Shown: piece by piece, positions 1,124 through 9,680 of the stretch | Layout: each line of letters starts with the position of its first letter | Numbering within the stretch: the stretch's first letter is position 1 | From: Myxococcota bacterium | GTDB lineage: Bacteria > Myxococcota_A > UBA9160 > SMWR01 | Assembly: GCA_039030075.1 (NCBI GenBank) | Contig: JBCCEW010000037.1 | Location: 1-45,428 of the forward strand | Direction of reading: 5' to 3' | DNA length: 45,428 bases | Program-made: the position numbers and the translations under genes | Notes under the pieces: generated by a model | What the model was told of the DNA's origin: nothing | What the model saw: the letters and a program-made list of their open reading frames with translations, nothing else | Databases searched by the model: none

Positions 1124-1240
1124 GCGACTTCCTCCCGAGCGCGCGTCGCGCGCCGCTGCAGAAGATACCGGGAGTGAGAGCGGGGGCAGGGAGGTCCGGT
1201 CCGACGCGGGGACCTGGCGCAGGGGGTGGCGAGGGGACTT

Positions 1241-1266
1241 ATTGTGGATACGATATATCTGCAAAT
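1241..1266 (+). promoter_or_regulatory. Putative Rrf2 promoter/operator
   Basis: An AT-rich island in otherwise GC-rich DNA lies 18 to 43 bases before the Rrf2 start. It contains the perfect 8-base palindrome GATATATC (1252-1259) inside a wider GATA...TATC dyad. Rrf2 proteins commonly autoregulate from such sites. Assignment as operator or promoter is inference. Confidence 0.4.
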
Positions 1267-1283
1267 AGAGAGGCGGACGCGAC

Positions 1284-1781
1284 ATGAAGATCGGAAAGGG
1301 CGTCGAGTGGGCCGCCCACACCTGTGCGCTGCTCGCCTTGCTGCCGCCGGGCGCCGCCCTTTCCGGGGAAGCGCTGGCCGACTTCCTGGGCGTGCCCACC
1401 CCGTACCTGGCGAAGCAGCTCCAGGCCCTGAGCCGGGCGGGGATCGTCGAGGCGAAGCGCGGCGCGGCGGGCGGCTACTGGCTGGCCCGCCCCCCCGAGC
1501 GCGTGTCGCTCTGGGACGTCACCGCCGCGCTCGAAGGCAGCGAGCCGAGCTTCCGCTGCACCGAAGTGCGGCGCAGCGGCCCCTGCGGCGCGTCGCCGGC
1601 GGAGTGCGCGGGTCCGTGCACGATCGCGGCGGCGTTCCGGCATGCCGAGGAGGGCTACCGGCAGGCCCTCGCGTCGGTCCCGCTCACCGAAGTGGTCGCC
1701 GGCGTCGCCCGGGATGCGACGTCCGCGCGAAAGCAGCGCATCCGCGCGTGGATCGATCAGAACGCGGCGCTGCCCGCCTGA
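1284..1781 (+). CDS. Rrf2-family transcriptional regulator, Cys-rich
   Basis: This 165-residue DNA-binding regulator has the Rrf2 winged-helix layout: a recognition-helix region around residues 36-56 (GVPTPYLAKQLQALSRAGIV) and the wing KRGAAGGYWLARPPE. Four cysteines follow at about residues 92, 101, 108 and 112, the region where IscR/NsrR-type members bind an iron-sulfur cluster, so it probably senses redox, NO or iron-sulfur status. It sits 19 bases upstream of a DoxX-family membrane gene on the same strand and probably controls it. An AT-rich dyad directly upstream may be its own operator. The family is clear; the cluster and the signal are inferred. Confidence 0.9.
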   Translation: MKIGKGVEWAAHTCALLALLPPGAALSGEALADFLGVPTPYLAKQLQALSRAGIVEAKRGAAGGYWLARPPERVSLWDVTAALEGSEPSFRCTEVRRSGPCGASPAECAGPCTIAAAFRHAEEGYRQALASVPLTEVVAGVARDATSARKQRIRAWIDQNAALPA

Positions 1782-1800
1782 AGACGAGAGAGGAATCACC

Positions 1801-2223
1801 ATGCTCCAGGAAGACCGACTCCCGAATCACTCCGCCCTCACCCTGGCCGCGCGTTTCCTGTTCACGGGGGTGTTCTTCCTGTCGGGCATCACGCACTTCA
1901 CGAACGTCGGCCGCTACGTCGCGCTGATGCCCGAAGCCATTCCTTTCCGTGAGTTCTGGGTCCTCGTCTCGGGCGTCGTCGAGCTGGCGGGCGCCGCCAT
2001 GATCCTCTTCGACTGGCGCCCCCGCCTCGGGGGCTGGTTGATCGTGCTCTTCCTGCTTCCCGTCACCGTCACCGTTCACGGCTACGAGATGCTCTACGCC
2101 GAAGGCGAGGCCATGCGCGCCATCCAGCAGGCGTCGTTCCTGAAGGGGTTCGCCCTGATCGGCGCGGCCCTGTTCATCACACAGGTGGGCGCCAGCCACC
2201 GTCCGGTGCCGGCGGCGCGCTGA
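1801..2223 (+). CDS. DoxX-family membrane protein
   Basis: This is a 140-residue integral membrane protein of the DoxX family with four hydrophobic segments at about residues 14-32, 50-66, 72-90 and 115-132. The pattern LFTGVFFLSGITHF in the first segment is typical of DoxX proteins. The start at 1801 follows a GAGAGGAA ribosome site; an open extension upstream overlaps the Rrf2 gene in another frame and is not coding. DoxX proteins are linked to thiol or oxidative stress and quinone-related redox processes, but the exact reaction is unsettled. Its position behind a cysteine-rich Rrf2 regulator fits a redox-stress role. Confidence 0.85.
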   Translation: MLQEDRLPNHSALTLAARFLFTGVFFLSGITHFTNVGRYVALMPEAIPFREFWVLVSGVVELAGAAMILFDWRPRLGGWLIVLFLLPVTVTVHGYEMLYAEGEAMRAIQQASFLKGFALIGAALFITQVGASHRPVPAAR

Positions 2224-2334
2224 ACGCGATCCACGATTCCTGTCCGGGTGTGGCCTGGTTCACAGGTGCGCTCGGCCCCAGGCGATAGGTTCCGCGCCGT
2301 CGAGGACGCAAGGGCGTCCAGAGGGGTGGACTGG

Positions 2335-2619
2335 ATGCAGCGATTCGGATGGCTCGGTGTGGCCGTGATCGGGGTGTGGGTGGCGACCCTTCTCACGTCG
2401 CTGTCGATGATGTGGGACCGCACCTGGATGGAAGGAAACCCGCCCTCCGAGCTCGCGACCGGGGGGCTCCACGGCCTCGCGGTGATCGCGGGCCTGGGGC
2501 TCGGCGGGTCCCTGCTGGCTCGGGCGGTTCGCCGCGAGCTCAGCCGTGCCCAGACGCTGTCTTTCGCCGTTGCGTTCGGTTTGTCGGCGACTTCGGTCGC
2601 CTTGTTTCTGAAACCTTGA
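2335..2619 (+). CDS. Small two-to-three-helix membrane protein
   Basis: This predicted 94-residue protein starts at MQRFGWLGVAVIGVWVATLL, with further hydrophobic stretches at about residues 42-60 and 75-92. I preferred the ATG at 2335 because the hydrophobic coding pattern begins there and a GAGGGG stretch precedes it; an in-frame GTG at 2248 is possible. I do not recognise the family. It lies between the DoxX gene and a Spy-like periplasmic gene, 23 bases ahead of the latter, so it may share a transcript of small envelope proteins. Confidence 0.6.
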   Translation: MQRFGWLGVAVIGVWVATLLTSLSMMWDRTWMEGNPPSELATGGLHGLAVIAGLGLGGSLLARAVRRELSRAQTLSFAVAFGLSATSVALFLKP

Positions 2620-2642
2620 AAGAACCCTTGGAGGGAATCGAG

Positions 2643-3053
2643 ATGCGTATTCGAACCATCGTGGGAATCGTCGTTGGCTTGTTGTTCATCGTGCCGGCCG
2701 CATATGCGGACGCGCCGCTCAAGAGCAAGCTCGGGCTCGATGTCGACCAGGCGAAGGTCGTCTCGGAGATCCAGGCGAAGTACAGGAAACAGAAGCGCAG
2801 CGTGCGCCAGGATCTGAACCGCGAGTCCCGGAAGCTACGGCGCGCGCGCTCGGCCAACGACAGCGAGACGATCGCGCAGCAAGAGCCCATCGTGGCGGGC
2901 CTCGAGGGGCAGATGCGCGAGCAGATCCGCGCCGAGGACGACGAGATTCGCAAGGTGCTCAGCCCCGAGCAGCTCGAGAAGTTCGAGGCCTATCTGCAGG
3001 TGCGGGACGACATGGTCGGGAGTTCCCGCGACGTCCGCGTGGGCAAGAACTAG
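2643..3053 (+). CDS. Spy/CpxP-like periplasmic helical protein
   Basis: This 136-residue protein has a clear signal peptide (MRIRTIVGIVVGLLFIVPAAYA, cleavage near residue 22). The mature chain is almost wholly helical and charged, with a C-terminal LSPEQLEKFEAYL segment typical of the Spy/CpxP/LTXXQ group of periplasmic chaperones and metal-responsive proteins. A good GGAGGG ribosome site precedes the ATG at 2643. The central part (KYRKQKRSVRQDLNRESRKL) would form a long amphipathic helix. It is probably a periplasmic stress or metal-binding helper; assignment to a precise family member is not possible. Confidence 0.7.
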   Translation: MRIRTIVGIVVGLLFIVPAAYADAPLKSKLGLDVDQAKVVSEIQAKYRKQKRSVRQDLNRESRKLRRARSANDSETIAQQEPIVAGLEGQMREQIRAEDDEIRKVLSPEQLEKFEAYLQVRDDMVGSSRDVRVGKN

Positions 3054-3070
3054 GGCCCTGACCCAGGGCC
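3054..3070 (+). terminator. Possible hairpin after the Spy-like gene
   Basis: GGCCCT and AGGGCC form a 6-bp stem around a 5-base loop immediately after the stop codon at 3053. No T run follows, so this is at best a weak or factor-assisted terminator. Confidence 0.3.
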
Positions 3071-3223
3071 ATCGCCCTCGCGTCGCGCACCTCCGCAGCG
3101 CGGCGCGGGGGCCGGCCTCGGCCGCCGAGACCGGGCCTTTCGTTCGACCCCGCGGCGAATATCCTTCGAGGTCACGATCGACCGCGTGAACGGGTCGGAG
3201 ACCGGAGTGGAAGGGGCGCGGGG

Positions 3224-3625
3224 ATGGCGGACGTCGAATTCGTGCGGGGCCTGGGCATCGAAACGGTGCTCTCCGAGGACGGACGCTGTGAGATGGCCCT
3301 GGAGGTCGAGGAGCGTCACTTCAGCACCGCCGAGCGTGTTCACGGCGGCGTGTTCTTCACGCTGCTCGACACGGCGATGGGCCGCGCGGTGATCTCGAAG
3401 CTTCCGGAGGGTCGTGGCTGCGCGACGATCGAAGCGAAGATCAACTTCTTCCGGCCGGTCCAGACCGGCCGCCTCGTGGCGGTCGGGCGCTGCGTGAACC
3501 TCTCCAAACGACTCGCCTACACCGAGGCCGAGCTCGTCGACGCCGAGGGGCGTTCGATCGCCAAGGCGTCGGGCACCTTCATGTTGACCGACACCTACCG
3601 TCAGGCCGACCGCGAGCGCGTCTGA
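3224..3625 (+). CDS. PaaI-type hotdog thioesterase
   Basis: This 133-residue single hotdog-domain protein carries the PaaI/4HBT signature HGGVFFTLLDTAMG at about residues 40-53. The HGG turn and the Asp on the long helix form the acyl-CoA thioesterase active site. The later strand TIEAKINFFRPVQTGRL is also characteristic. It probably hydrolyses an acyl- or aryl-CoA in the cytoplasm. It stands alone, convergent with the PQQ-like gene downstream, so the substrate cannot be told. A second thioesterase of the same class lies at 20481. Confidence 0.88.
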   Translation: MADVEFVRGLGIETVLSEDGRCEMALEVEERHFSTAERVHGGVFFTLLDTAMGRAVISKLPEGRGCATIEAKINFFRPVQTGRLVAVGRCVNLSKRLAYTEAELVDAEGRSIAKASGTFMLTDTYRQADRERV

Positions 3626-3652
3626 TCGGAGGTCGATGCAGCGGTCGCCTCG

Positions 3653-5194
3653 CTAAGGCGCTTCGTCTCCGGTGACGGGCTCGAAGGCCACGATCCCGCC
3701 GGTGGGCGGGGGCGTTTGCATCGCCTCGGGCAGGAGCCAGCGGTAGGGAGCGCCGGCCGCGATCGACGCCTGGATCGCCAGGATGTCGAGGTAGAGCTGA
3801 CCCTGGTGTCCGACGCTGATGCCGCCTTCGCTGGTGTCCGGGATCGGGTAGTCGGTGAGCAGATCGCCCGTCGCGGGGTCGAGGGAGACGAGCCGCGTGT
3901 TGCGCGGGTGGAAGAAGGCGCGTCCGAACACGTTCATGTCCCAGCCCATCACGACGCTCGTCCAGATCACGTCCTCGGTGATGGTGACGACGCTGTCGAT
4001 GGCGCTGGTCGGCACCCCGCTCACGACGAAGGGCCACCAGGAGCTGACCGTGGGCAGGTGGCGTCGTGCCAGGTCGTCGTAGTTCCGTTCCCAGAGCACC
4101 TCGCCGCTGCGACCGTCGAGCTTCACGAGGCGTTCCCGCGCGAGCGCGTAGACGCTGCCGTCGTTGTCGACCGAGGGGGACGCCGGGACGCCGCCGATCG
4201 GGGTCGTGAAGAGCACTTCGCCCGTCGTCGCATCGAAGGCCATGACGTTGCCTTCGCCGTCGAAGGCGAAGACGCGTTCCCCATCGGCAGAGATGGCGGG
4301 GCTGGTTCCCGTCCCGGGGTCGGTCACGGTTTCGAAGGCGATGCGAAGCGCACCGTCTGCGAGGTCGATGCCGTAGAAGAGGCCTTCTTCGAGGCTGCGT
4401 CCGCCGGCGAGCAGGTAGATGCGCCCGGTCTCCGGATGCACCGCCGGCGAGTTCGTGACTTCGTAGCGATAGCCGAGCAGGATGCGCTCGGCGCGCTCGC
4501 GGGTCTCGCGATCCATCAAGCCGGGTTCCCACAGCCAATCGGGAACTGGAGGGCCATCGGGGCTGGCACCGCCCGGCAGCTCGAGCACGGGCACCGCGAG
4601 GGATCCATCGGCGCGCGAGAGCAGCACCACCTGGCCGTGGACGCTCACGCCTCCCACATGACCTCCGATGAAGATGCCGGTGACGAAGGGGCCAGCGACG
4701 CCCAGCGTCGATACCTCGGTCACCCATTTCACGCGGCCGTCGGGGTGGAAGGCCCAGAACTGGTCTGCGTCGCCGACGTAGACGTCACCGTCGTCCCCGA
4801 TGATCGGCGCGCTGGTCACGGCGCCGGGCCCGAGCTGGGTGTCGTCCTCGTACACGTCGCTCTCCCACACGATGGCTCCCTCGGGTGAGATGGCGTGCAG
4901 GTGGCTCGTGCCGCGACCGCGACCGGTGGTGACGAAGAGTCGGCCATCGGGCGCCACGCTAGGTGCCGTCCAGCTCCCCGAGCCTTCGAGCACGTGCCAA
5001 GTCGGCTTCATCGTCGTGGGCAGCCGCACGGGGACGTAGTCCGAGTTGCGCGAGTCGCCGTGCACGGCGGCCCAGGTGGTGCGCGCGTAGCCCGGGCCGT
5101 TCGCGAAGGGCGGCTCGGCCTGGGCCAGCGAGGGCAGCAGTCCGATGGCGGCTGCGGCCATCGGGAGAACGCGAATCGACGAAAAGGAAATCAT
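3653..5194 (-). CDS. Secreted PQQ-like beta-propeller repeat protein
   Basis: This 513-residue exported protein begins with a signal peptide (MISFSSIRVLPMAAAAIGLL, cleavage after AQA near residue 26). The rest consists of repeated blades of the PQQ-binding-like/quinoprotein-dehydrogenase propeller, for example GAIVWESDVYEDDTQLGPG, YVGDADQFWAFHPDGRVKW, FAFDGEGNVMAFDATTGEV and YALARERLVKLDGRSGEVLW. Each ends in the aspartate/glycine turn and tryptophan-containing strand typical of these blades. I see no dehydrogenase catalytic region or cytochrome c CxxCH motif, so it is more likely a structural or binding propeller than an enzyme. The start at 5194 was chosen for the signal peptide; the open frame upstream lacks coding character. 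Confidence 0.8.
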   Translation of the reverse strand: MISFSSIRVLPMAAAAIGLLPSLAQAEPPFANGPGYARTTWAAVHGDSRNSDYVPVRLPTTMKPTWHVLEGSGSWTAPSVAPDGRLFVTTGRGRGTSHLHAISPEGAIVWESDVYEDDTQLGPGAVTSAPIIGDDGDVYVGDADQFWAFHPDGRVKWVTEVSTLGVAGPFVTGIFIGGHVGGVSVHGQVVLLSRADGSLAVPVLELPGGASPDGPPVPDWLWEPGLMDRETRERAERILLGYRYEVTNSPAVHPETGRIYLLAGGRSLEEGLFYGIDLADGALRIAFETVTDPGTGTSPAISADGERVFAFDGEGNVMAFDATTGEVLFTTPIGGVPASPSVDNDGSVYALARERLVKLDGRSGEVLWERNYDDLARRHLPTVSSWWPFVVSGVPTSAIDSVVTITEDVIWTSVVMGWDMNVFGRAFFHPRNTRLVSLDPATGDLLTDYPIPDTSEGGISVGHQGQLYLDILAIQASIAAGAPYRWLLPEAMQTPPPTGGIVAFEPVTGDEAP

Positions 5195-5923: not shown

Positions 5924-6481
5924 CTACGGGGTCTTGGCGCGGAACACCCGGCGAATCCGCATCGGGCCGTCGTCGGTGTCGATCCGGTTCCGCAGCTCGA
6001 GGTGGTCGTCCACGCGGGCCCAGGTCGACGTGATGACGACGATGCGGTCCGCATCGACGTAGTTCTGCTGGGTCACGACGAGCTCGCCGGCGTCGTTCCA
6101 CACCTCGCTCGAGACGACCTTGCGCCCGAGCGGGTCCTTCCGCTCGCGCTCGACGCCATCCGCGGGCATGGGCGTGTCGGTGGTCTGGATCGGGTTCTCG
6201 TTGACGATGCGCAGGCCGTCCCCGAGTGGCGTGATGGTCAGGGTCGGCTCCATCACGTCGGCCATCTTGCGCGCGACCCAGGGCGCTTCCATCACCTCGA
6301 GCAGCGGTCCGATGGGGTCGGAGGCGTCGCCGTCGAGCTGCCAGACGCCGATGTAGGAGTCGCCCGGGTCCGAAGCGTTCTCGGCCGCGGTGGCGCTGGC
6401 GAACAGCGCGCAGCACAAGAGCGCTACCGGAGCAGCCAGCCGCGTTCGCGCTCCAGAGTGGCTCGATCGGAAGACGCGCAT
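5924..6481 (-). CDS. Secreted hypothetical protein, lipocalin-like pattern
   Basis: This 185-residue protein begins with an export signal (hydrophobic core LAAPVALLCCALFASATAA, cleavage near residue 32) and continues as a mostly beta-strand domain (IGVWQLDGDAS, LTITPLGDGLRIVNE, DRIVVITSTWARVDDHLELRN). The pattern recalls a small lipocalin-like or START-type barrel, but I cannot assign a family. It begins 10 bases after the stop of the Sec-containing redoxin, so it is probably the last gene of the ScsB-redoxin transcript and may act in the same periplasmic redox process. Confidence 0.65.
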   Translation of the reverse strand: MRVFRSSHSGARTRLAAPVALLCCALFASATAAENASDPGDSYIGVWQLDGDASDPIGPLLEVMEAPWVARKMADVMEPTLTITPLGDGLRIVNENPIQTTDTPMPADGVERERKDPLGRKVVSSEVWNDAGELVVTQQNYVDADRIVVITSTWARVDDHLELRNRIDTDDGPMRIRRVFRAKTP

Positions 6482-6491
6482 GCGCTGCACC

Positions 6492-7256
6492 TCAGTCGAG
6501 ATGGGCTTCGAGGGCAGCCAATACGACCTCGGGCCCCGAGCGCCGCTGGTAGTTCTCGGCCACGTCCATCCAGAGCACCTTGCCGTTGGCATCGACGAGG
6601 AGTGACGCGGGAACGGGCAGCGCTTCGATCTCGTCTCGTGGGTCGCCCGAGTGGGCACCCTCGTTACGCAGGCCGAAGGCGTCGGTCACCGCCAGGGTGC
6701 GGTCCGAGAGCATGGTCGCCTGCAGCCCGTGGGCCCGTCGACCCTTGCGGATGTCCTCCGGGTGGTCGGTGCTCACGGTCAGCACTTGTACGCCGCGCTC
6801 GTCGAACTCACTTCGCAGTTCTTCCCATCGCCGCAACTCGGCGACACAGTACGGTCACCAGTGGGCGCGGAAGAACTTGATCAGGACCGGGTTGCCGCGC
6901 AGCCGTGCCGAGTCGAAGAGTTCGCCGTGGTCGTCGGGCGCGTTGAAGTCCGGGATCGTGTCGCCCACCTGGATCGCGTTCGGCGGCAGGATCTGCTCGC
7001 TGATGCTCACGGTGAAGGTCAGGAAGAGCCCGAGCACGATCGCGGGCAGCGCCGCGATCCGGCCGAGCCAGGTTGCCTTCATCACGAAGGCCGCGACGCC
7101 GAGCGCGGCGGCGCTCAGCCAGGCTGCGACGAAGAGAACGCGGCTCTGGGGGAGGTCGACCGCTTCCGCCAGCGAGAACCACGTCATCACCGAGCCGACG
7201 GCGAGCGCGAGCCCCACCAGGGCCAACCGGTTTCCTAGATTCGCCAAGGCACTCAC
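6492..7256 (-). CDS. Selenocysteine-containing membrane redoxin (UPYC)
   Basis: Read through the in-frame TGA at 6857-6855, this is one 254-residue protein. Residues 1-90 hold three transmembrane segments. From about residue 95 it is a peroxiredoxin/AhpC-TSA-like thioredoxin fold: VGDTIPDFNAPDDHGELFD, then LIKFFRAHW-U-PYC-VAELRRWEELRSEF, then VQVLTVSTD and PASLLVDANGKVLWMD. Relatives carry WCPYC at this point, so TGA replaces the first redox cysteine; Sec is residue 134 and the resolving Cys is 137. A hairpin suited to bacterial SECIS follows the TGA. The start is GTG at 7256, behind GAGGAGG. Three helices with the N-terminus inside would place the redoxin domain in the periplasm, where the adjacent ScsB/DsbD-like reductase could reduce it. 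Automatic annotation would split this into two hypothetical genes (7256-6855 and 6836-6492). A sequencing error (TGC to TGA) is the alternative, but the hairpin argues against it. Confidence 0.88.
6826..6846 (-). promoter_or_regulatory. Bacterial SECIS hairpin of the redoxin gene
   Basis: In the mRNA sense the eight bases UGUCGCCG pair with CGGCGAUG around a five-base loop AGUUG. Six of the pairs are Watson-Crick and the two outer ones are G-U. The hairpin starts 9 nt after the UGA and the loop G of the GU pair is 18 nt after it. This is within the distance known for bacterial SECIS elements, which carry a G (often GU or GG) in a small apical loop for SelB binding. The element lies wholly in coding sequence. 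Confidence 0.8.
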
Positions 7257-7319
7257 GCAGGCCTCCTCGTTCTCGGGGCGCGGCGAACACGCCGCGCCGA
7301 TTCTAGTACGCCGCAGCGT

Positions 7320-9680
7320 TCAGATGCCGGCTTCTCGCCCTGCGGCCGCGAGAGCTTCGACCGTGTCGTCGAGGGTCAAGAGCTCTGGGAGCAGCTCGGG
7401 CGACTTCGCGGGGTCGGCGGGATACACGAGGTACATCGGCACACCGGCGCGGCCCCAGGTTCCCAGCGCGCGGGTGATCCGGTCGTCCCGCCGGGTCCAG
7501 TCGGCCTTGAAGACCGCGTAGTTCCAGCGCTCGAGCTCGTTGCGGACGGCGTCCTGCGAGAGCACGACGGTCTCGTTGACCTTGCAGGTGATGCACCAGT
7601 CGGCGGTGAAGTCGACGAACACGGGGCGGCCCGCTGCGCGTTCGCGCGCGATCGCGGCGGGGTCGAAAGCCACCCAGGCGATCCCGTCGCCGGAGTCGGC
7701 GACGCGGTCTCGGGTGTCCGGGGGCGGCGCCGCGTCGAAGGGCAGGATGGCGAGCGCCCCGACGACGAAGGCGAGTGTCGCGGCGGCCAGGCTGCGGGCC
7801 CAGCCGGTGCGCGCTGCTGCCTGGGCGATTCCGAAGAGCCACGCCAGGAACGCGACGACGACCAGGTAGGCCAGCAGCAGGGACTGGGTGTCGACGCCCG
7901 CGGCCCGTCCTGCCACCCAGGTCAGCCACATCACGGTGGCGAGGAGGGCGAAGGCGAGCGCCTGGCGCACGCGGAGCATCCAGGCGCCGGGGCGCGGGAC
8001 GAAGCGGGACCAGCCCGGCACGACGGTCACCAGCACGAAGGGCGCCGCGAGGCCGATTCCGATCGCAGTGAAGATGGCCACGATCACCAGCCCCGAGCTC
8101 GCGAAGGCAAAGCCCACCGCCGTTCCGAGGAACGGCGCGGTGCACGGCGTCGCGACGGCGACGGCGAGGGTGCCCTCGAAGAAGCTTCGCGAGGTCGCCG
8201 GGGGTCCGACCGCGGGCCCGAGATCCGGTCCGGACGGTTGCAGCGTGATCTCGAACGCACCGAAGAGGTTCATCGCGAACACGACGAGGATCGTGCAGAT
8301 CGCCGCCAGAAAGATCGGGTTCTGGAGCTGGAAGCCCCAGCCGACCGCAGCTCCTGCCGAACGCAGTGCGATCACGACCGCGGCGAGCGCCCACATCGAC
8401 GCGACGATGCCGGCGAGATAGGCGAGGCCGTGTCGCACGGCGTGCCCGCGCTCGGCCTGGGCGAGCTGGGTGACGGCGAAGATCTTGATCGCGAGCACGG
8501 GCAGGACGCAGGGCATCAGGTTCAAGATCAACCCGCCGACCAGCCCGAGCAGCAACGCGAAAGCCAACGACGGGGAATCGGGCTGCGGCGCCTCGGTGGC
8601 CTTCGGCTCGTCGGGGGCCGAGGGCAGGGCGGCGATCACGTCGAAGGTCCCGGCGGACGCTTCGTTGGCGTCGACGACGAGCGGGATGTCCACCGCGAGG
8701 TGCGCCGCCTGGTCGGCGCGGGCGAGCGGAACGATGCCGCGCAGGCGCATGCCATCCAGCGCCTGTTCCCCTTCGAAGGACTCGGCGTGCAAGACGAGCG
8801 AGAAGCCGCGGGTCTCGTCACCGTCCACGCCCGCTTGCGGCGCGCGCGCGAGCCCTTGCGCCGAGAAGCCCACGTCCGACGCCTCGAGGGGGAGGAACGC
8901 CTGGTCGGCGTAGGGTGTGTCGAGGATCCAGGGGCGGCAGTCCGCACCGGCTTCCGTGCAGGAGCTGATCTCGAGCACGACCGCAACGGGTTCGTCGACC
9001 GCGGTCGGCTTCGCAGCGCGGGCGGCGACGTTCGCCTGGAGCGCGCGCGGACGCTGCGGCACCCGGGACGCCGCGAGGTCGAAGCGCTGGCGAACCGAGA
9101 CCTCCGCGGGCGTACGCGTCTCGCCGACGGGAACGGCGTGCGCGAGCTCGATGCGGCCCGGAATGCAGGCGGTGAGGCACGCGACGAAGCGGACCTGGGC
9201 TTCGAGGTTCCAGGCGTCCGACGCAGCTGGCACGACGCGCGCCTCGGCGTGCAGCAATACCTCGTCCTTGTAGCCGTAGGTCGTCAGCAGGCCGTCCGCT
9301 TCGCGAAACACGTGTGGTGCCGGCCAGCGGAGCGGTCCGACCTCGCCCTGGGGAGCGTTCCAGGCGATCTGGGTGGCGGCGCCCGAGTCGCCCGGATTCT
9401 CCCAATAGATGTGCCAGCCCGGATCCAGGGTGAGCAGGACCCCGACGCGAACGCGATCGCCGGGCGCCACGCGGTCCGCGTCGACGACGAGCTCGGCGCG
9501 GACCCGCGCATCGTCGACGCCCAGGGCCGCCTCGCCGGTCGGCCCGGGCGCTGCGAGAGCGGGGAGGGCCAGGGTCAGCAGCACCCCCACGAGCGTCAGC
9601 GCGCGTAGCGCCGAGAGGCGAACGCGCTGCGCGCGAGGGTTGGATCGGGGCACCGACACCGGTGCGGGTTCCTGGAACAT
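7320..9680 (-). CDS. ScsB/DsbD-like thiol:disulfide interchange protein
   Basis: This 786-residue membrane reductase passes electrons from cytoplasmic thioredoxin to periplasmic thiol proteins. The order is: signal peptide (hydrophobic core near residues 27-43); a periplasmic beta-sandwich domain of the DsbC/ScsB N-terminal type with FVACLTACIPG and two further cysteines (SSCTEAGADCRPW); a CcdA/DsbD-type transmembrane domain with the paired cysteine motifs NLMPCVLPV and ATPCTAPF; and a C-terminal thioredoxin domain with DFTADWCITCK (Cys696 and Cys699). All six expected redox cysteines are visible. It is the first gene of a minus-strand group, 63 bases ahead of the Sec-redoxin, which is a plausible partner. 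The start at 9680 lacks a strong ribosome site, and in-frame GTG codons downstream are possible. Confidence 0.9.
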   Translation of the reverse strand: MFQEPAPVSVPRSNPRAQRVRLSALRALTLVGVLLTLALPALAAPGPTGEAALGVDDARVRAELVVDADRVAPGDRVRVGVLLTLDPGWHIYWENPGDSGAATQIAWNAPQGEVGPLRWPAPHVFREADGLLTTYGYKDEVLLHAEARVVPAASDAWNLEAQVRFVACLTACIPGRIELAHAVPVGETRTPAEVSVRQRFDLAASRVPQRPRALQANVAARAAKPTAVDEPVAVVLEISSCTEAGADCRPWILDTPYADQAFLPLEASDVGFSAQGLARAPQAGVDGDETRGFSLVLHAESFEGEQALDGMRLRGIVPLARADQAAHLAVDIPLVVDANEASAGTFDVIAALPSAPDEPKATEAPQPDSPSLAFALLLGLVGGLILNLMPCVLPVLAIKIFAVTQLAQAERGHAVRHGLAYLAGIVASMWALAAVVIALRSAGAAVGWGFQLQNPIFLAAICTILVVFAMNLFGAFEITLQPSGPDLGPAVGPPATSRSFFEGTLAVAVATPCTAPFLGTAVGFAFASSGLVIVAIFTAIGIGLAAPFVLVTVVPGWSRFVPRPGAWMLRVRQALAFALLATVMWLTWVAGRAAGVDTQSLLLAYLVVVAFLAWLFGIAQAAARTGWARSLAAATLAFVVGALAILPFDAAPPPDTRDRVADSGDGIAWVAFDPAAIARERAAGRPVFVDFTADWCITCKVNETVVLSQDAVRNELERWNYAVFKADWTRRDDRITRALGTWGRAGVPMYLVYPADPAKSPELLPELLTLDDTVEALAAAGREAGI

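Follow-up and report, generated by a model that had tools for sequence, protein, structure and literature searches.

The window, a 45,428-nucleotide stretch of a Myxococcota contig, carries three successive genes on its minus strand. The first (7320–9680, 786 aa) encodes a DsbD/ScsB-like electron exporter, identified by Pfam matches, cysteine conservation and transmembrane (TM) pattern. It consists of a signal peptide, a DsbD_N domain, eight TM helices and a C-terminal Thioredoxin_7 domain, and the DsbD_N, DsbD_TM and Thioredoxin_7 matches all scored above the Pfam cut-offs. The redox cysteines are C168/C172 in the N domain, C391 and C513 in the membrane and C696/C699 in a WCITC motif. An exporter with all six of these residues had been proposed in the original prediction, made from the DNA letters, and they are kept in 31/31 homologues (9/9 linked to a redoxin gene, 22/22 others). 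The N-domain cysteine pair, the eight-TM domain with two membrane cysteines and the C-terminal thioredoxin CxxC are the structural hallmarks of DsbD/ScsB, and an extra cysteine pair, C241/C248, is also present. Electron transfer from cytoplasmic thioredoxin to periplasmic clients is predicted for this exporter. A tRNA-Gly called by ARAGORN at 8270–8368 (minus), inside the dsbD coding sequence, is probably a false positive.

The second gene (6492–7256, minus strand, 254 aa) begins 63 bases after the dsbD stop codon and encodes a membrane-anchored redoxin containing selenocysteine (Sec), as originally described. It was characterized by translation, Pfam, homologues, an AlphaFold2 model and fold matching. 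The anchor comprises three N-terminal TM helices (aa 11–29, 40–58 and 67–85), and the domain with peroxiredoxin fold spans aa 94–254. Pfam detected the AhpC-TSA/Redoxin domain with 99 and 80 bits. The AlphaFold2 model (pLDDT 96, pTM 0.90) gave its best structure matches with Bcp (Bcp4), AhpC, AhpE and Prx6 at Z 20–22. An AhpC-TSA domain was found in 22/22 family members checked, which together with the motif UPYC places the protein among the peroxiredoxin (Prx)-like UxxC redoxins. The third gene (5924–6481, minus strand) lies 10 bases after the redoxin stop codon and encodes a secreted 185-aa protein that is unassigned to a family; a Pfam search returned no match at E ≤ 10.

The UGA read as Sec (U134 in FFRAHWUPYC) is located at 6855–6857 on the minus strand, and the TGA is kept across homologues. 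Exactly one in-frame TGA was present in 60/60 homologues of the class (E ≤ 1e-30, 90 genomes) and is therefore not a chance occurrence; no Cys form was found among these 60. A bacterial SECIS hairpin with a 7 bp stem and the loop AGUUG (6827–6845, minus) begins 9 nt past the UGA. Folding of this region as a single sequence was non-significant by itself (z 0.08), and the SECIS is assigned from the covariation test. In the SECIS alignment, 95.6% of cells were paired and 30 cells were doubly changed, compared with 8.8 in shuffles (0/500). Pairs of UA, GC, CG and GU alternate at one position, while UA replaces CG at another. The codons following the UGA are nearly frozen (GTC GCC GAG TTR CGG CGA), with TTR as the Leu codon in 99/100 sequences compared with about 15% in the rest of these genes. 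The window genome encodes SelB (322.6 bits against a cut-off of 242) and a tRNA-Sec with anticodon UCA; a second tRNA-Sec covariance match (51.2 bits) proved to be a tRNA-Ser. Because the single TGA is universal in the class, the SECIS covaries and both SelB and tRNA-Sec are present, the UGA of the redoxin is assigned as a selenocysteine codon on comparative grounds.

In the wider family, scanned with one genome per species, Sec occurs in 100 of the 106 motif-bearing sequences and Cys in six (duplicates removed). Relatives were found in Myxococcota, 'Deltaproteobacteria' MAGs, Gammaproteobacteria, Binatota, Acidobacteriota and Chloroflexota, and none was found in the viral contigs searched. 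The six Cys forms belong to Psychrosphaera, Colwellia, Pseudocolwellia and one Patescibacteria MAG; all are distant, and none lies near a DsbD gene. These sequences (L193, L197, L199, L200, L202 and L213) cluster inside Sec-containing branches, as would fit a replacement of Sec by Cys in their lineage. In the window genome itself, 11 of 24 matches to the AhpC-TSA domain (PF00578) bear one in-frame TGA (on contigs C16, C41, C12, C37, C3, C9, C17 with two, C36, C6 and C20), and the genome therefore appears rich in selenoredoxins.

Gene order was compared in close relatives with a redoxin identity of about 69–80%, leaving out G009, where the contig ends. An orthologous DsbD lies directly upstream of the redoxin on the same strand, at a distance of −4 to 136 nt, in 8/11 of these testable genomes (G046, G048, G051, G052, G057, G062, G069 and G072). 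DsbD is not adjacent to the redoxin in G038, G050 and G073. Counting the window genome, linkage is found in three families; the redoxins of G051 and G052 are identical. No other conserved neighbour was found beside the pair in the linked relatives, and none beside the unlinked redoxins. Linkage in relatives, to which the original prediction had tied its proposal, is thus retained for the exporter and the redoxin. The third gene of the proposed order is present in the window but is not conserved beside the other two. Homologues of the secreted protein occur in eight other genomes of the order, all away from the redoxin, on which ground a three-gene operon was rejected; as judged by gene order, this protein is not part of the conserved pair.

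The linked DsbDs form a single clade (support 100/100). The DsbD and redoxin gene trees are broadly congruent and most groupings agree, those common to both being the window with L126 and L127, L119–L121, L123–L124, and L129 in the outermost position. The exporter–redoxin linkage appears to have arisen once. Adjacency to a window-type exporter was seen only inside the redoxin clade of the window.

The orientation of the redoxin was assessed by the positive-inside rule. As a control, K+R residues were counted in the DsbD loops of the same organisms (23 homologues). The counts were 9–15 in cytoplasmic and 0–2 in periplasmic loops, with eight TM helices in the expected orientation, so the rule works in these organisms. 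For the redoxins, the charge count was made over a fixed set of alignment columns. The window's redoxin clade (31 rows, support 100/100) has a net charge bias of +1 to +7, corresponding to an N-in anchor and a periplasmic redoxin, and all DsbD-linked redoxins lie between +3 and +7. In the 72 other rows the bias is negative except in four (three at +1, one at 0), corresponding to a cytoplasmic redoxin, and all four charge-counted regions are reversed between the two groups. Extra cysteines in the redoxin domain occur in 3/31 members of the window clade compared with 35/72 of the others, and their scarcity in the former is as expected for an oxidising compartment.

By charge counts only, the redoxin of the window is most likely periplasmic, in agreement with the topology originally proposed, while the charge patterns favor a cytoplasmic redoxin in most of the wider family. 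The window clade looks like a topology inversion of the redoxin anchor because its charge patterns are opposite to those of most of the wider family. On balance, it is somewhat probable that charge redistribution inverted the three-helix anchor of one family, giving a periplasmic clade and a cytoplasmic remainder, and that only the periplasmic form gained an adjacent DsbD. The gammaproteobacterial members of the window's charge clade are never DsbD-linked. The family member of the culturable marine gammaproteobacterium HTCC2143 falls in the group of opposite charge. A full DsbD was present in 15/17 genomes with the window clade compared with 11/30 of those that have the opposite type alone (p = 0.0008, with no correction for relatedness). 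When the comparison was limited to unlinked cases, the co-occurrence was non-significant (6/8 versus 11/30, p = 0.11).

A cytoplasmic redoxin domain is very improbable for the window. It would reduce the proximity of DsbD to a shared transcription unit with no electron transfer, a reading with which the opposite charge pattern of most family members and the absence of the adjacent pair in 3/11 relatives would agree. Nevertheless, all linked members carry the periplasmic type of bias, and since a DsbD supplies electrons to the periplasmic side, a conserved partner in the cytoplasm would have no ready explanation.

When the redoxin profile was aligned to solved structures, ResA gave the best match, and Sec134 fell on the first Cys of the ResA WCxxC motif, a position taken by Thr in peroxiredoxins. 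Cys137 aligns with the peroxidatic Cys. The invariant Pro216 aligns with the cis-Pro of ResA, where peroxiredoxins have Arg. Compared with a canonical peroxiredoxin, the domain has the fold but lacks both the catalytic Thr/Ser of TxxC and the catalytic Arg. As aligned, the active site is ResA-like, with Sec in the predicted attacking position. Thiol–disulfide exchange seems likelier than peroxide reduction, because the Thr and Arg of peroxiredoxins are absent and the site resembles that of ResA. The function was originally left as a peroxide or thiol system; the thiol–disulfide half of that proposal is favored here and the peroxide half less so.

The peroxiredoxin fold and the structure matches to Bcp, AhpC, AhpE and Prx6 would nevertheless suit a mainly periplasmic selenoperoxidase. 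Here Sec134 would reduce peroxides at the membrane surface, Cys137 would resolve the selenenic acid and DsbD would recycle the enzyme, making it a one-protein selenium counterpart of the TlpA–PprX branch of Caulobacter. The best NCBIfam score is that of the Bcp thiol peroxidase model, though under its cut-off, and ScsB-dependent removal of envelope peroxide is known in Caulobacter, as outlined in PMC5403849. With Sec in place of the TxxC Thr and an invariant Pro in the column of the catalytic Arg, peroxide reduction as the main function seems rather unlikely.

Other clients were found beside related exporters. The closest unlinked relative is a sister DsbD in G039, whose gene shares four bases with that of a secreted Cys redoxin bearing the motif NPGCPY (L243, G039:C13, 8314–8895, plus strand). 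TlpA-like WCxPC proteins follow eleven other DsbDs of the order, including a paralogue in the window genome (C1:137492-139486). At this last locus (L078, C1:134500–141500), the TlpA-like Cys thioredoxin (WCGPC) is accompanied on the same strand by genes for a small lipoprotein, an outer-membrane-like protein and an ApbE-like protein. As read from gene order, DsbD with an adjacent redoxin is a recurring module in which the putative client varies. Since the sister exporters have Cys clients (TlpA and the NPGCPY redoxin), the window represents a selenium version of a known arrangement.

The TlpA-like neighbours of these eleven DsbDs, together with the profile match to ResA, might also point to an assembly factor of the ResA/CcmG/TlpA type, supplied with electrons by DsbD as is usual and reducing apocytochrome c or a copper-site thiol. 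Such a role is improbable, however, as genes for cytochrome c or oxidase assembly are not conserved beside the pair and the genome has a separate DsbD–TlpA pair at a locus apart from that of the Sec-redoxin.

A second family of three-helix Sec-redoxins, with the motif WUPFC, occurs in the same order (L117, on contig C9 of the window genome, and L220–L232). All members of this distant family are predicted to face the periplasm, and none was found beside a DsbD except the member in G029. There (L219, G029:C44, about 1163–4262, minus strand) a distant Sec-redoxin (FYRGFWUPFC) ends ~30 bases before a full-length DsbD. The gene order is the reverse of that in the window, and the locus counts as another case, distinct from the first, of a Sec-redoxin associated with DsbD.

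The exporter and the adjacent Sec-redoxin of the window probably constitute a two-component periplasmic reducing system. The exporter would draw electrons from cytoplasmic thioredoxin through its membrane cysteine pair and pass them to its periplasmic thioredoxin-like and N-terminal domains, which would in turn reduce the Sec134–Cys137 selenenyl-sulfide of the membrane-anchored redoxin. With the redoxin domain on the periplasmic face, Sec134 would act as the attacking nucleophile and Cys137 as the resolving residue. The redoxin would then reduce oxidised envelope thiols (disulfides and sulfenic acids), with peroxide reduction by the selenolate perhaps a second activity. Reduction of the redoxin by this particular DsbD, and the nature of its substrate, are our inferences.

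If true, this would be a hitherto undescribed pathway of envelope reduction with selenium as the catalyst, together with a natural topology inversion that relocated an enzyme. Extracytoplasmic selenium thiol enzymes need electrons, and the locus offers a testable answer: a selenoprotein served by a DsbD of its own. The contrast of the clade that faces the periplasm with relatives of opposite orientation amounts to a natural experiment, both on the switching of sides by a membrane enzyme and on the reasons for keeping Sec. A literature search turned up neither an account of a membrane-anchored Sec-redoxin in the periplasm with a DsbD gene next to it nor one of an orientation switch in a Sec-redoxin family; the search was incomplete and leaves room for an earlier report of either. 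Prx-like UxxC selenoproteins and DsbD/ScsB–redoxin modules are already known.

ResA/TlpA oxidoreductases are typical clients of DsbD or CcdA. They share with the window redoxin a CxxC-type site with a cis-Pro and an extracytoplasmic, membrane-tethered domain, whereas the latter has three TM helices, Sec for Cys in its UPYC motif and a fold ranked closer to peroxiredoxins. The selenoprotein TsoB (NF045694), a rhodanese/DsbD fusion, also links a DsbD-type membrane domain to selenium. The window DsbD matches the DsbD-like part of TsoB but has neither Sec nor a rhodanese domain, and it scores 137 against a cut-off of 805. Prx-like UxxC selenoproteins were reported from the Sargasso Sea set (PMC1088965), and the name 'Prx-like thiol:disulfide oxidoreductase' is used in PMC13188914. 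As in the window, they combine an AhpC-TSA domain with a thioredoxin-like UxxC instead of TxxU; the descriptions in these two papers make no mention of a three-helix anchor or a DsbD partner, both of which the window has.

The studied precedent is the ScsB–TlpA–PprX envelope reducing pathway of Caulobacter crescentus (Cho et al. 2012, via PMC5403849). As outlined there, an exporter of the DsbD superfamily likewise feeds dedicated periplasmic clients of thioredoxin fold, one of them with a peroxiredoxin fold. In place of a TlpA-like protein and a periplasmic peroxiredoxin beside the exporter, and with no TlpA relay at the locus, the window has a single adjacent client, the membrane-anchored Sec-redoxin.
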